NCBI GenBank assembly: GCA_018222965.1 | Contig: JAAEZH010000028.1 | Coordinates: 1-64,000, forward strand | Source of the DNA: Bacteroidota bacterium | Lineage (GTDB): Bacteria; Bacteroidota; Bacteroidia; Chitinophagales; Saprospiraceae | Length of the DNA stretch: 64,000 nucleotides | Direction of reading: 5' to 3' | Part shown: positions 3,387 through 7,779 of the stretch, piece after piece | Layout of the letters: every line of letters begins with the position of its first letter | Numbering within the stretch: the stretch's first letter is position 1 | Notes under the pieces: model-generated | What the model was told of the DNA's origin: nothing | What the model saw: the letters and a program-made list of their open reading frames with translations, nothing else | Database searches by the model: none | Position numbers and translations under genes: made by a program

Positions 3387-4625
3387 ATGCGATTTACTGA
3401 ATTAGAACTCAATGAGCAATTACTCGAAGCCCTTTACTATATGGGATTTGAGGAAGCCACTCCCATCCAGGAACAAGCGATTCCATTAATTTTAGACCAC
3501 AAAGATCTGATTGCCTGCGCACAGACAGGTACCGGAAAAACGGCGGCCTTCATATTGCCGGTTCTGGATCAGATTGCCCGAAACCCTCAGCCGGGCACCA
3601 GTGCATTGGTTATTGTTCCCACCCGCGAATTGGCCTTACAGATTGATCAGCAGATCCAGGGCTTCGCTTACTTTGTAGGCGTTAGTTCGCTCCCCATTTA
3701 TGGTGGTGGAGACGGAATAGAATTTGATCAGCAAAAAAAGGCTTTAAAGGCCGGTGCCAACATTGTTGTTGCTACGCCCGGAAAGCTCATTTCCCACCTT
3801 AATATGGGGTATGCCAAGTTTGACAACATCAAGCATCTTATTCTCGATGAAGCAGACCGCATGTTGGATATGGGATTCATGGAAGACATTAATAAGATTC
3901 TGTCTTACCTGCCCAAGGAGCGTCAGAATCTGATGTTTAGTGCGACCATGCCATCAAAGATTCGCAAGTTTGCCAATGATATCCTGCACGAGCCGGAGGA
4001 GATAACCATTGCACTTTCCAAACCGGCCGAAGGGGTACTGCAGGCAGCCTATCTGGCTTACGATACGCAAAAGGCAGATTTGTTGAATTACCTGATCGCA
4101 GACAAACCCAATTATAAGAGCATCCTGATATTCAGTTCGACCAAGCGTAAAGTGTTTGACATTGTACGCTCCCTAAAGAGAAAAGGATTTCAGGCAGACG
4201 GGATTTCCAGCGATCTCGACCAGAAAGGACGGGAGGAAGTGTTGAGTAAATTCCGCGCCAAGAAAACCCGAATACTCGTTGCCACAGATGTTTTGAGCCG
4301 TGGTATCGACATCAAGGATATCAATCTGGTGATCAACTACGATGTTCCCGGCAATGCCGAGGATTACGTACACCGTATTGGTCGTACGGCCCGGGCAGAC
4401 ACGACCGGTGTAGCCCTCACCCTCATCAATGAAAAAGACATGGCCGATTTTTCGCAGATCGAGCAATTGATCGAGCGCGAAGTGATGAAAGTACCCATTC
4501 CACCCGAGTTGGGAGAAAGTCCAAAATGGAATCCAAAGTCCAGAGGCGGTGGTCGCGGTTACAGCCGGGGAAGAGGTCATGGTGGCAAACGCGGCGGTGG
4601 AAGAAATCATCGAAACAAGCGCTAA
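3387..4625 (+). CDS. DEAD-box ATP-dependent RNA helicase (RhlE-like)
   Basis: 412 residues with the full DEAD-box motif set in order: Q motif (FTELELNE...TPIQEQAIP), motif I AQTGTGKT, Ia PTRELAL, GG, Ib TPGKL, II DEAD (in DEADRMLDMGF), III SAT, then in the second RecA domain IFSSTKR, SRGIDI (motif V) and HRIGRTARA (motif VI). The tail from about residue 385 is rich in Arg and Gly (RGGGRGYSRGRGHGGKRGGG), an RNA-binding tail typical of RhlE and cold-shock DEAD proteins in Bacteroidota. Expected role: ATP-driven remodelling of RNA duplexes in ribosome assembly or mRNA turnover. It probably has its own promoter, but no clear TAnnTTTG was found in the 46-base gap upstream. The exact subfamily (RhlE rather than CsdA or SrmB) is inference from tail and length. 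Confidence 0.93.
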   Translation: MRFTELELNEQLLEALYYMGFEEATPIQEQAIPLILDHKDLIACAQTGTGKTAAFILPVLDQIARNPQPGTSALVIVPTRELALQIDQQIQGFAYFVGVSSLPIYGGGDGIEFDQQKKALKAGANIVVATPGKLISHLNMGYAKFDNIKHLILDEADRMLDMGFMEDINKILSYLPKERQNLMFSATMPSKIRKFANDILHEPEEITIALSKPAEGVLQAAYLAYDTQKADLLNYLIADKPNYKSILIFSSTKRKVFDIVRSLKRKGFQADGISSDLDQKGREEVLSKFRAKKTRILVATDVLSRGIDIKDINLVINYDVPGNAEDYVHRIGRTARADTTGVALTLINEKDMADFSQIEQLIEREVMKVPIPPELGESPKWNPKSRGGGRGYSRGRGHGGKRGGGRNHRNKR

Positions 4626-4714
4626 CAACCTGTTGCGCTTTACCGGTTTGATCTTCCTGGCCAAACCCAAAAGATGCTTCTCCTTATTGTCTTTTGAAAA
4701 ACTTTACCTAAGTA

Positions 4715-4746
4715 TTTGCAATCCCTTTTTCCACAATGTATCTTTG
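4715..4746 (+). promoter_or_regulatory. Promoter of the tRNA-Val gene
   Basis: TTTG at 4715-4718 and TATCTTTG at 4739-4746 are separated by 20 bases. This fits the Bacteroidota consensus (TTTG, about 19-21 bases, TAnnTTTG). The predicted start is near 4753, about 30 bases upstream of the tRNA. It is the best promoter match seen in the window. Confidence 0.72.
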
Positions 4747-4784
4747 CAGGCCGCGCAGCTGAAAGCAGTTGCAGGGCGACCTCA

Positions 4785-4859
4785 GGGTGATTAGCTCAGT
4801 TGGTTTAGAGCGCATGCTTGACAGGCATGAGGTCGGCGGTTCGAATCCGCCATTACCCA
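4785..4859 (+). tRNA. tRNA-Val (anticodon GAC)
   Basis: Cloverleaf of 75 bases. The acceptor stem GGGTGAT pairs with ATTACCC using one G-T pair. The anticodon stem CATGC/GCATG carries loop TTGACAG, with GAC at 4820-4822. The T arm is GGCGG-TTCGAAT-CCGCC. The discriminator is A, and the CCA tail is not encoded (the genome reads CTA). Confidence 0.97.
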
Positions 4860-4871
4860 CTATGGTGAGTT

Positions 4872-4896
4872 TGTCCCGATAGCTATCGGGATGAGT
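4872..4896. repeat. Left copy of a 25-bp inverted repeat around an 18-bp palindrome
   Basis: The core at 4874-4891 is a perfect palindrome (TCCCGATAGCTATCGGGA). The 25 bases 4872-4896 occur inverted at 5310-5334. It is followed by G/T-rich sequence (TTTGGG-type tandem units, 4894-4912) that is mirrored by C/A-rich units on the right side. It starts 13 bases after the tRNA-Val gene. Confidence 0.85.
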
Positions 4897-4935
4897 TTGG
4901 GTTTGGGTTTGAATAATTGAAATGATTTGAGGAAG

Positions 4936-5298
4936 ATGGAAAGTGTGGAGTTGTTTGATTTTCAAAAGCTAATTGTCTATCAACGAATACGATCGTTGAA
5001 CAAAGAGATTTTGCCCTTGATTTACAATGATCTAGCCAAAAAATTACCTTTTTTGGCCGATCAGCTTAAACGCGCAACAAAAAGTATTGCCCTTAATTTG
5101 GCAGAAGGAGTAGGAAGAACCTCTCCCGCAGATAAGCGAAGGTTCTACGTTATGAGTAGGAGTTCATTGTATGAATGTGTTGCCAGTTTGGATATCTTCT
5201 TAGATTTAGAAATAATAGACCAAAGGCAATACGATGAGTTGATAAAAAGGTACACAGAGGTGTCAAAAATGTTATATGGTCTCCAAAAAAAGACTTAA
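4936..5298 (+). CDS. Four-helix-bundle protein of the 23S rRNA intervening-sequence (IVP/Avd-like) family
   Basis: About 120 residues, mostly amphipathic helix. The pattern resembles the four-helix-bundle family first seen as proteins encoded inside 23S rRNA intervening sequences and related to the Avd subunit of diversity-generating retroelements: an opening F-x-K-L-x-V-Y-Q helix, then LADQLKRATKSIALNLAEG (residues about 39-57), then a Y-V-M-S-R-S-S-L-Y-E helix. Family function is not settled; a basic face suggests nucleic acid binding. The ATG at 4936 is preferred over an in-frame TTG at 4927; AGGAAG immediately precedes it. The gene sits between two tRNA genes and is flanked by inverted copies of a palindromic repeat. 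No reverse transcriptase or variable repeat is nearby, so it is not part of a DGR here. Confidence 0.82.
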   Translation: MESVELFDFQKLIVYQRIRSLNKEILPLIYNDLAKKLPFLADQLKRATKSIALNLAEGVGRTSPADKRRFYVMSRSSLYECVASLDIFLDLEIIDQRQYDELIKRYTEVSKMLYGLQKKT

Positions 5299-5309
5299 AC
5301 GACCCTCAC

Positions 5310-5334
5310 ACTCATCCCGATAGCTATCGGGACA
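5310..5334. repeat. Right copy of the 25-bp inverted repeat
   Basis: Exact inverted copy of 4872-4896, again centred on the TCCCGATAGCTATCGGGA palindrome (5315-5332). It begins 11 bases after the stop of the four-helix-bundle gene. It is followed by CAAACT-type tandem units (about 5337-5375) that mirror the GTTTGG-type units on the left. Together they frame the gene as one cassette. Either palindrome could fold as RNA and terminate or protect a transcript. Confidence 0.85.
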
Positions 5335-5379
5335 CCCTCAAACTCAAACTCAAACTCACACTCAAACCCAAACTAACCC

Positions 5380-5453
5380 CGGGATGTAGCGCAGTCCGGT
5401 AGCGCACACGGCTGGGGGCCGTGCGGTCGCAGGTTCAAATCCTGTCATCCCGA
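5380..5453 (+). tRNA. tRNA-Pro (anticodon GGG)
   Basis: 74-base cloverleaf. Acceptor stem CGGGATG/CATCCCG, anticodon stem CACGG/CCGTG with loop CTGGGGG and anticodon GGG at 5414-5416. The T arm reads GCAGG-TTCAAAT-CCTGT. The discriminator is A and CCA is not encoded. No promoter is visible in the 81 bases between the four-helix gene and this tRNA, so it may depend on the tRNA-Val promoter upstream. Confidence 0.96.
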
Positions 5454-5454
5454 C

Positions 5455-5496
5455 AAAGCCCGTCTTTATTGTGAAAGCAATCGAAGGCGGGCTTTT
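5455..5496. terminator. Bidirectional terminator between tRNA-Pro and the TonB receptor gene
   Basis: The 12-bp arms AAAGCCCGTCTT (5455-5466) and AAGGCGGGCTTT (5484-5495) pair with one G-T pair around a 17-base loop. TTTTC follows on the plus strand. It begins one base after the tRNA and ends one base before the receptor stop codon (5497-5499), so it can serve both convergent units. Confidence 0.75.
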
Positions 5497-7779
5497 CTAA
5501 TTTAAGGACTTGCTGATCTTTAATCCGGCAAACCAGTTGCGGGGAAGCCCCGGGTAATAATACCTGGGCGGAGCACCAAATGAAGGCGCATTGATCAGGA
5601 TCATGGAAGCGTAATGCTCGTTTAAAAGATTCTGAATTCCACCGAAAACATCCAGCTGCCAACCTTTGTTTAAGTCAATTTTATATCCAGCCTTAAGATG
5701 CAGCAGGGAATAAGGATCTGAGTTCACGCTGTTATCATCCCGCATCGGAAAGGCAGAACGGTATTCATAATTTACAAATGCATACAGCTTATCCTGCCAT
5801 TGCAGATCAAAACCACAAAACAACTGGTGTGGAGCTACGCCAGTCAGTCTGTTTCCTGAATAATCCTGGTCCAGATCTTCAAATTCAATAAAGCGATAGT
5901 TGGTGAAGGTGTAGGTTAGATGCGGACGAAGGACCCAATCTGACCAGGTTTTTCGATAATCCAGAAATACTTCCAGGCCGTCGTGCCGTGTTTTCCCGGC
6001 ATTTACTCCAACATATTGATCCGCACTAATCCGCCGGGCTACCAGCAGATCTTCGACCCACATCCGATAAACAGATACTTCATAATGGAAGGAATTAAAG
6101 ATCAATCCACGGGTGCCGGCTTCCAGGCTCCAGCCTTTTTCAGGTTGGATATCCGGATTGATGCTTCCATCCGGGGTCAGGGTTTCCTCCAGAGACGGGG
6201 CGGAGAACCCGTGGCTGATGTTACCGAAAAAACTAAAGCGGTCTTCCATCGTATAGGATATGGCCAGCCGGGGAGAAACTACGGGATCGAAATCATAATC
6301 TCCCGATAAGTCCAGGCTGTCGGCTGAATACAGATCTGAATAAGAATATTTTGTCTGGTTTAGATTCAAACCACTCGAGATAAAAAACGGGCCCAACTGC
6401 AAATCACTCTTCAGAAATACATTCACATAGGTGCGCGTTTCGCGATTGTTGCTCAGGATCGCTCCCGGACTGCGATTAAGGGTCTCGAAGGTCTGCCATT
6501 CCACTTTGTCGCGAAACAATTCAGTGCCCAGGCTTAGCAATGTCCTTTTTCGGGAATGATAAGGTCTTTCAATCAGAGACAGGGTTGTTCTGCCTCCCAT
6601 TGCCTGTCGGTTGTCATCCAGAATATTAAACGGACGCAATTCATAGCCGTCATAGGAAGAAGTAAACAAACTGGAAACCAGCACTAAATTCCGATTAAAC
6701 AAGCTTCCAAAACTATGCTCGAGCGACAGCCCCGCATGCAGTTTTTCGTAATCCTCGAACCCTCTTACCGCTTGCCAGTTGGAAGCGGCTATTGTTGGCT
6801 GGTTTTCAAAATCATTTTCATTCAGGGAGCTTGGAATAAAAGCTTTCAATTTGCTGTAAACCACCAGATACTGGAAAATGGAATTGCTTCCCAGGTAATT
6901 CTCCCCATAAAGATTCAACCCTTCTCTGCGGAAACCGCTATTGTCCCGGTAACCATCGCTTCGGCTCAAATGGTAGTTGGCTTTCATCCATCCATTGCTG
7001 CCTATTTGGGTGTTAAAACCTGTACTGTTTCTGAACAAGCCAAAAGAACCGACGGTGCTCTTACTGAAAATGGATCCGGCTTCACGCTGTTTTGCCTTCA
7101 AATGAATAAGCCCTCCCAGGGGTGCCCCATAAGCCACAGCGCCCGGCCCCTTCAAAACATCAGCCTGATCAATGATACTCATATCAATATCCTCGATGCT
7201 GCTATTGCCCGAGCCGTCGGTAAGGGGGATGTGGTTTAAATAAACCCGCAATTTGGAAGTACCATAAAGCGATCGACTTCCAATGCCTCGTATGCTTATG
7301 CGATTGGTATTGAGATTGCCTGTCTGCATGTGTAATCCCGGTACCCGGTTGAGTGCGGGTAACAAGCTGATATCTAAATCTCTGTTTAATTGAGAGGCCC
7401 TCAACTGCATGGCAGGCACCGGATTTCTAATTTGGATGGGAACATCCCGAATGACAGGACCGGTTACATAATCAATTACTTTTTCGAGGTATACCTCGTT
7501 AAGCTCCCTTTTTTGCAACTCAACTTCCTGGTCCTGATATCCGACATAAGAGATCTTTACAAGGGCTTTCGCCGAAAGGTTTATGCGGAAACGGCCATCC
7601 TCATCGGCAATTACACCCGATCCGCTTGCTTCATGGTAGACGCTCACATAGGGCAAGGGTTCCCCGGTATCCAAATCCCGAACGACTCCGGTATAGGAAT
7701 CCTGGGCAGATAATAAAGAGGAGAAAAAAAGTCCATATAAAAGTAAAAGCAATAATCGCATTAGCCGGGTATTTGCCAT
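5497..7779 (-). CDS. TonB-dependent outer-membrane receptor with carboxypeptidase-like N-terminal domain
   Basis: 760 residues. A signal peptide (hydrophobic run to SAQ, about residue 25) is followed by a carboxypeptidase-regulatory-like beta domain (YTGVVRDLDTGEPLPYVSV, about 29-105). Next come a plug domain (about 115-230, with RGIGSRSLYGTSK and DVLKGPGAVAYGA) and a 22-strand barrel ending in aromatic-rich sequence. It lacks the STN signalling domain of the receptor at 28575. Plug and barrel resemble siderophore, haem or cobalamin receptors rather than SusC, and there is no SusD partner. The ligand cannot be told from sequence. It lies just upstream, on the same strand, of nothing else; the TonB-like/Exb genes that probably energise it are transcribed towards it. 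Outer membrane. Confidence 0.9.
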   Translation of the reverse strand: MANTRLMRLLLLLLYGLFFSSLLSAQDSYTGVVRDLDTGEPLPYVSVYHEASGSGVIADEDGRFRINLSAKALVKISYVGYQDQEVELQKRELNEVYLEKVIDYVTGPVIRDVPIQIRNPVPAMQLRASQLNRDLDISLLPALNRVPGLHMQTGNLNTNRISIRGIGSRSLYGTSKLRVYLNHIPLTDGSGNSSIEDIDMSIIDQADVLKGPGAVAYGAPLGGLIHLKAKQREAGSIFSKSTVGSFGLFRNSTGFNTQIGSNGWMKANYHLSRSDGYRDNSGFRREGLNLYGENYLGSNSIFQYLVVYSKLKAFIPSSLNENDFENQPTIAASNWQAVRGFEDYEKLHAGLSLEHSFGSLFNRNLVLVSSLFTSSYDGYELRPFNILDDNRQAMGGRTTLSLIERPYHSRKRTLLSLGTELFRDKVEWQTFETLNRSPGAILSNNRETRTYVNVFLKSDLQLGPFFISSGLNLNQTKYSYSDLYSADSLDLSGDYDFDPVVSPRLAISYTMEDRFSFFGNISHGFSAPSLEETLTPDGSINPDIQPEKGWSLEAGTRGLIFNSFHYEVSVYRMWVEDLLVARRISADQYVGVNAGKTRHDGLEVFLDYRKTWSDWVLRPHLTYTFTNYRFIEFEDLDQDYSGNRLTGVAPHQLFCGFDLQWQDKLYAFVNYEYRSAFPMRDDNSVNSDPYSLLHLKAGYKIDLNKGWQLDVFGGIQNLLNEHYASMILINAPSFGAPPRYYYPGLPRNWFAGLKISKSLN

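Follow-up and report, generated by a model that had tools for sequence, protein, structure and literature searches.

The tRNA-Val and tRNA-Pro genes of the window (the whole 64-kb stretch of DNA under analysis) are separated by what is probably a small mobile cassette, in which an IVP gene is enclosed between inverted arms composed of tandem arrays, and which is proposed to have inserted between genes of one transcription unit and to be looped out of the host RNA. The arrangement described in the initial annotation, namely tRNA-Val, a 25-bp repeat, the IVP gene, an exact inverted copy of the repeat, and tRNA-Pro, was reproduced by ARAGORN, by profile searches, and by the exact 25-bp match, and comprises the following features.

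4715-4746, + strand: Bacteroidota-type promoter pattern TTTG-N20-TATCTTTG, 38 bp 5' of tRNA-Val
4785-4860, + strand: tRNA-Val(gac), identified by ARAGORN
4861-5379, + strand: putative inserted cassette, i.e., the 519-bp spacer (13 to 65 bp in five relatives)
4866-4912, + strand: 5' arm, with an inverted repeat at 4866-4899 (palindrome at 4874-4891) followed by a hexamer array at 4895-4912
4872-4896, + strand: left copy of the 25-bp exact inverted repeat, from sequence comparison
4936-5298, + strand: IVP gene (PF05635/TIGR02436), ATG at 4936, TAA at 5298, alternative start TTG at 4927
5307-5373, + strand: 3' arm, with an inverted repeat at 5307-5340 (palindrome at 5315-5332) followed by an array at 5338-5373
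5310-5334, - strand: right copy of the 25-bp exact inverted repeat, from sequence comparison
5380-5454, + strand: tRNA-Pro(ggg), identified by ARAGORN, on the same strand as tRNA-Val
5455-5495, + strand: terminator-like hairpin 3' of tRNA-Pro (-23.3 kcal/mol, z -5.7)

Membership of the window gene in the IVP family was established by matches above the curated cut-offs across nearly the full length of two profiles, PF05635 (E = 1.8e-25; 89.7 bits, cut-off 33.8; profile positions 1-106 of 106) and TIGR02436 (E = 4.7e-23; 81.5 bits, cut-off 24; profile positions 1-107 of 109). The sole Pfam family detected in the cassette at an E value of ≤0.001 was 23S_rRNA_IVP, and no transposase was found there. 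The 34-nt arms at 4866-4899 and 5307-5340 are 91% complementary, and their 25-bp exact inverted core contains the palindrome TCCCGATAGCTATCGGGA, for which two matches (≤2 mismatches) were obtained in the 64-kb window versus none in 100 shuffles. The hexamer arrays at 4895-4912 and 5338-5373 are also mirrored.

The promoter consensus of the Bacteroidota is TTTG-N17-23-TAnnTTTG. This pattern occurs three times in the window when both strands are considered, and its single occurrence within 4500-5600, at 4715-4746, agrees with the previous statement that the only good promoter lies upstream of tRNA-Val. A strong promoter belonging to tRNA-Pro had been regarded as an argument against insertion; the scan for the Bacteroidota pattern revealed none before this gene. 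A sigma-70 scan returned a single weak site, located within the IVP gene and not above shuffles. By sequence, tRNA-Val, the IVP gene, and tRNA-Pro read as one transcription unit with one promoter and one terminator-like hairpin. In the predicted fold of 4785-5454 (z -4.8, 20 shuffles), positions 4894-4912 are paired with 5356-5374, while the minimum-energy structure misfolds tRNA-Val, the first bases of which pair with 5376-5379.

The suggestion that a cassette had been inserted into a former tRNA operon gained support from the corresponding spacers of relatives. The tRNA-Val and tRNA-Pro genes lie side by side in 10 genomes, three of which possess a spacer filled with an IVP gene and its arms (519 bp in G000, 569 bp in G001, and 571 bp in G019), as opposed to spacers of 13 to 65 bp in five others; the remaining two spacers are longer (201 and 271 bp) and are without an IVP gene among the matches listed. 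Together with the single promoter and terminator, this distribution indicates that the spacer at 4861-5379 represents a cassette insertion into a former tRNA operon. Moreover, the relatives that carry the gene at this position do have mirrored repeats, the lack of which had been proposed as a sign against insertion. A second spacer, between tRNA-Ser and tRNA-Pro(tgg), yields a comparable series: the pair is present at 25 of the 30 loci examined, where two spacers are filled (G006, 450 bp; G080, 760 bp), one, that of the window's own genome, is hollow and holds inverted arrays within 112 bp, two, of 96 and 98 bp, contain arrays that look degenerate by eye, and another 20 measure 4 to 135 bp with no arrays seen. 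All five filled tRNA spacers exhibit inverted G/T arms, with arm scores (defined below) of 17.0 to 26.5, and the four other tRNA-spacer IVPs are 43 to 63% identical to that of the window, compared to 29 to 31% for two IVPs from elsewhere. The palindrome, initially viewed as a key part of the cassette, was rejected as its core because it is a dispersed 18-mer that is absent from three of the five filled tRNA spacers (G019, G006, and G080) and from all but the present one of the nine IVP loci of the window's own genome.

To assess inverted arms around IVP genes in general, 350 bp upstream of each gene was scored against the reverse-complemented 350 bp on the downstream side, with loci oriented by the IVP gene. 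The sample consisted of 78 IVP loci from the own genome and its relatives up to the level of order, being high-scoring or full-length among the matches listed rather than a random draw; three (L023, L075, and L106) were dropped due to flanks of <120 bp, leaving 75 usable loci from 30 genomes. The threshold of 15.5, representing the 99th percentile of 5,364 flank pairs from different genomes, was reached by 39 of the 75 loci; with one locus re-oriented, the percentile becomes 15.0, a value reached by 40 loci, and 15.5 is again reached by 39. Control open reading frames (ORFs), drawn from the window and 20 further stretches (18 from relatives, two from the own genome) with the window IVP gene removed from both counts, reached 15.5 in 2 of 221 cases overall and in 1 of 53 cases with at least 100 bp of intergenic sequence on both sides (Fisher test, 2.3e-25 and 7.9e-11, respectively), and one of the two was, by eye, a transposase-like ORF with terminal inverted repeats. 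Certain loci are not independent, namely the three G019 copies, the tandem duplicate L019/L020, and L069/L074, which occupy the same operon junction. The other 36 loci fell below the threshold, and four of the eight usable loci of the own genome reached it.

The arms are mostly short tandem arrays of varying unit (TTAATGG, GGTCGAT, GAGGAAT, AAGTCGT, and AGGTGTC, for example), those of L018 and L095 being composed of longer palindromic units instead, and the upstream arm is richer in G than in C on the coding strand at 38 of the 39 armed loci. The top arm score of the set, 77.5, belongs to L095 (G001:C7), with its GGCCTTTGGCC-like palindromic units. Direct instead of inverted flanking repeats were observed at L019, L020, L022, and L065 (direct scores of 136.5, 253, 139, and 76, respectively); L019/L020 (own genome, C90:53030-53955) represents a tandem duplication of an IVP gene with a 614-bp period. 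In a second set of named loci, found by sequence and measured solely against the threshold and controls obtained for the first set, 13 of 22 usable new loci reached 15.5 (two further loci duplicated the first set and were excluded, as was one whose flank was too short), and the titles of the armed loci include Terriglobia, Elusimicrobia, Omnitrophota, Epsilonproteobacteria, and Pseudomonas. The IVP genes of cyanobacterial plasmids (n = 4) did not qualify as armed cassettes, with scores of 10, 9.5, 14.5, and 8. No description of IVP genes between inverted arrays was found in openly licensed papers, which constitutes a weak negative.

Stable RNA genes had been suspected to be a special home for such cassettes, a notion which the survey did not bear out, as most armed cassettes with a readable upstream ORF follow a protein gene. 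An upstream ORF was readable at 33 of the 39 armed loci and was co-directional with the IVP gene at 26; in 24 of these 26 cases the arm lies within 60 bp of the upstream stop codon, the exceptions (238 and 240 bp) being tRNA sites. The downstream ORF is co-directional at 21 of 37 armed loci. Even the cassette at L114, which is antisense to its neighbors, is situated between the stop of one gene and the start of the next (by eye). Host pairs, based on Pfam domains with gene names assigned by eye, include enoyl-CoA hydratase and thiolase (L058), kynureninase and an FAD-binding enzyme (L059), a PAPS-reductase domain protein and an EF-Tu-type GTPase resembling cysD/cysN (L064), carboxyl transferase and biotin carboxylase (L069), and an HPPD-like member of the glyoxalase superfamily and homogentisate dioxygenase (L077). 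Location between the genes of other operons suggests a wider class of mobile elements, of which rRNA insertions would be one form.

Certain junctions recur. A cysD/cysN-like junction with an IVP gene was observed at L064, L085, and L272 (G016, G010, and a Pseudomonas, respectively, the last read by eye), i.e., in two phyla, the arm score of L085 being 12.5 and below the threshold. An HPPD-like gene adjoins an IVP gene in four genomes (L023, L113, L082, and L077), on differing sides, reflecting either repeated insertion or rearrangement. In two strains of Flavobacterium columnare, a four helix bundle gene is located between the guanylate kinase and nicotinic acid mononucleotide adenylyltransferase genes and, in the portion of PMC5524665 concerned with it, is classed within a phage region; this gene may be another cassette.

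Copies within a single genome are consistent with mobility. In G019, one cassette, arrays included, is present at three unrelated sites, L077 sharing 96% identity with one of the other two copies and 86% with the other, and the homology stops at the arrays. Among the matches listed, four other genomes of the same genus gave no match in the array part of L077; the L077 host genes are far apart on one contig in G060 and on separate contigs in the drafts G062 and G063, and one of the two was matched in G061.

The arm repeats also occur apart from the IVP genes. In the own genome, the 18-mer palindrome was found at 48 places (≤1 mismatch) in several contexts, and three consecutive copies of the hexamer GTKTGR gave 71 forward and 71 reverse overlapping matches, a count for which the backward pattern is invalid as a control because reversing a tandem array can leave it matching that pattern. 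Neither repeat is, therefore, peculiar to the tRNA-Val/tRNA-Pro spacer; both are dispersed in the genome. Many solo copies start with TAGTTTGAG and follow closely on a stop codon, in the orientation that makes G/T the sense strand, and 13 of 31 array clusters of the own genome start from -20 to +30 relative to the stop of a co-directional ORF (351 of 13,600 random positions). This preference of solo arrays for starting after a co-directional stop was seen in G019 as well (10 of 14 clusters versus 147 of 5,600 random positions) but not in the Pseudomonas genome, where only one of five clusters conformed, an IVP arm being among the five.

The identity of the array unit varies with the genome. 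Among 40 genomes, the threefold TTAATGG pattern (≤1 mismatch) was detected in G019 (106 overlapping matches on one strand and 120 on the other) and G008 (three matches), in both of which it forms IVP arms (L077, L112, and L114 in G019; L103 in G008). Similarly, threefold GGTCGAW was confined to G004 (168 and 153 matches) and G001 (13 matches) and is found at an IVP gene in each (L069 and L086, respectively). Counting against such a coupling, G015 has a related arm at L074 yet gave no match to the GGTCGAW pattern. In Pseudomonas sp. KNUC1026, CAAGCTGCAAGCTGCAAG yielded 23 matches (≤1 mismatch), two of them beside the IVP gene, and the backward pattern yielded none. For the units tested, TTAATGG and GGTCGAW, these counts indicate that array unit and genome are coupled.

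This coupling is open to a second explanation, which we consider unlikely overall but the strongest of the competitors: the arrays would be host or otherwise independent dispersed repeats that often form inverted pairs in intergenic positions, and IVP genes would be passengers which recombine into them, such that the arms match the arrays of the genome because they are the arrays of the genome. The arrays could indeed predate the cassettes rather than follow them, and both the unit shared by the three G019 IVP loci and the gene-less inverted pairs of the own genome (L186 between tRNA-Ser and tRNA-Pro, L187 between tRNA-Gly and tRNA-Tyr, L031 between tRNA-Arg and tRNA-Lys, and L188) are in keeping with this. 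However, the three G019 copies carry their arrays along (although recombination at shared arrays could imitate such behavior), the G019 tRNA cassette has G/T arms rather than the TTAATGG of that genome, and genes of other kinds seldom have arms (1 of 53).

A driver acting in trans is improbable. Under this model, a RAYT-like Y1 transposase would move the palindromes and arrays, or a reverse transcriptase would copy the hairpin RNA; the hairpin ends resemble the REPIN substrates described in the relevant part of PMC3116915, two Y1 transposase genes are present in the own genome, and 18 of 40 genomes contain an RVT_1 match. Both candidates are weakened by the own genome, in which neither of the two Y1 loci holds the palindrome or a hexamer array and which, though rated 100% complete, gave no RVT_1 match. 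One of these Y1 genes (L220, C87:71917-72261) has inverted flanks of its own (score 22) that differ from the hexamer and the palindrome, and looks like an ordinary RAYT locus. Least probable is a stable host feature, in which a conserved gene of the tRNA operon would act as an RNA chaperone or in processing and its flanking hairpins would serve as processing sites, since, although the tRNA-spacer IVPs of five genomes form a related group (43 to 63% identity to that of the window), most tRNA pairs are without an IVP gene (3 of 10 and 2 of 25 filled), the gene occurs in two different tRNA spacers, and family relatives reside in unrelated operons.

We return to the mobile IVP cassette, a proposal founded on what can be read from sequence: the anatomy, the insertion, the dispersed copies in one genome, the coupling of array unit to genome for the units tested, the position behind stop codons, and one 23S insert of like anatomy. 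The cassette is envisaged to insert between adjacent genes of one unit, having here split a tRNA-Val/tRNA-Pro operon, and would be transcribed together with the host operon. The arms are presumed to pair in the cell, so that the IVP gene would lie in a loop closed by a long RNA stem, the host genes on both sides would stay usable, and the cassette, as an RNA loop, would be tolerated inside operons. In mRNA hosts, looping would bring the upstream stop and the downstream start together, while in rRNA and tRNA units the loop could be excised, RNase III being the most likely nuclease. The arm sequence would also spread alone, as single arrays and gene-less hairpins, in the manner of REP and REPIN sequences beside a RAYT gene, and the IVP protein may help the arms or the cassette to spread.

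A broader formulation is offered tentatively, with the balance judged to lie somewhat against it: IVP proteins may be the spreading factors of a large, unrecognized class of transposase-less mobile elements, in which each IVP lineage amplifies its own tandem repeat and inserts between genes of transcription units in either orientation, harmlessly by virtue of looping. The 23S inserts and many of the unexplained heptamer arrays seen between genes would then belong to this class or be relics of it. This would offer the heptamer arrays a means of spread, none being evident in the pertinent part of PMC4679880. Cassettes in tRNA and protein operons, present in multiple copies and with genome-matched arms, would provide a common, testable explanation for the IVP protein and the arrays, and would represent a design that lets a mobile gene sit inside an operon without breaking it.

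Among known systems, diversity-generating retroelements encode Avd, which belongs to a related four-helix-bundle family. The window element differs from these in that its genome is without an RVT_1 match; elsewhere, at G039:C24:2609-4667, two IVP matches adjoin a match to reverse transcriptase in what may be a diversity-generating retroelement-like unit. It differs from an insertion sequence in that the cassette encodes no transposase. The IVP family is also represented by 18 genes in cas loci reported in PMC3936711, to which L196 (Picosynechococcus sp. PCC 7003 plasmid, 1486-1842) is comparable, being an IVP gene within a type III-B CRISPR module, where cas10 and a gene of the Cmr3 family flank it; its arm score of 14.5 is below the threshold.

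Intergenic heptamer arrays such as TAACTGA resemble the arms in that, according to the part of PMC4679880 describing them, 7-bp units lie between genes near starts and stops with a patchy distribution across phyla, but in the main genome there 169 sets are direct and a single repeat is inverted; the term S23 has no occurrence in the text of that paper. The resemblance to REP/REPIN/RAYT systems, as portrayed in the corresponding part of PMC3116915, lies in a genome-specific repeat type and in repeats that are scattered through intergenic DNA, both singly and as inverted pairs, and that also accompany one gene. Repeat dispersal is accordingly shared, whereas a Y1 gene flanked by the repeat was not found: the flanked gene encodes an IVP, not a Y1 transposase, and short tandem arrays replace fixed palindromes.

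The closest likeness is to 23S rRNA intervening sequences. That of Coxiella burnetii, as presented in the applicable part of PMC4990558, has a 28-bp stem that is cut by RNase III in vitro, and a transposition remnant and a mobile element are among the hypotheses given there for its origin; it shares with the cassette the protein family, the complementary ends, and an ORF in the loop. In the window, such a stem of complementary ends enclosing the ORF is represented by the arms and the predicted fold. Differences from the Coxiella insert are the location, between tRNA genes here and between protein genes in relatives, and arms consisting of arrays whose unit is also dispersed in the genome. The parallel drawn initially with such inserts proved to extend further than proposed: in plasmid AZO_p2 of Azospirillum lipoferum, a single LSU rRNA match (RF02541, L198 283-3336) encloses an IVP ORF, and the stem of this insert is an inverted GAGGACGGA-type array with a score of 23.5, from which it follows, on the one case examined, that the rRNA insert and the free-standing cassettes share their anatomy. 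By the features tested, the location of the window element, between tRNA-Val and tRNA-Pro rather than within a 23S rRNA gene, sets it apart from 23S rRNA inserts, and the element is neither a RAYT nor an insertion sequence nor a diversity-generating retroelement; it is best read as a free-standing, mobile generalization of the 23S rRNA intervening sequence, equipped with REPIN-like dispersed arms and devoid of a transposase.
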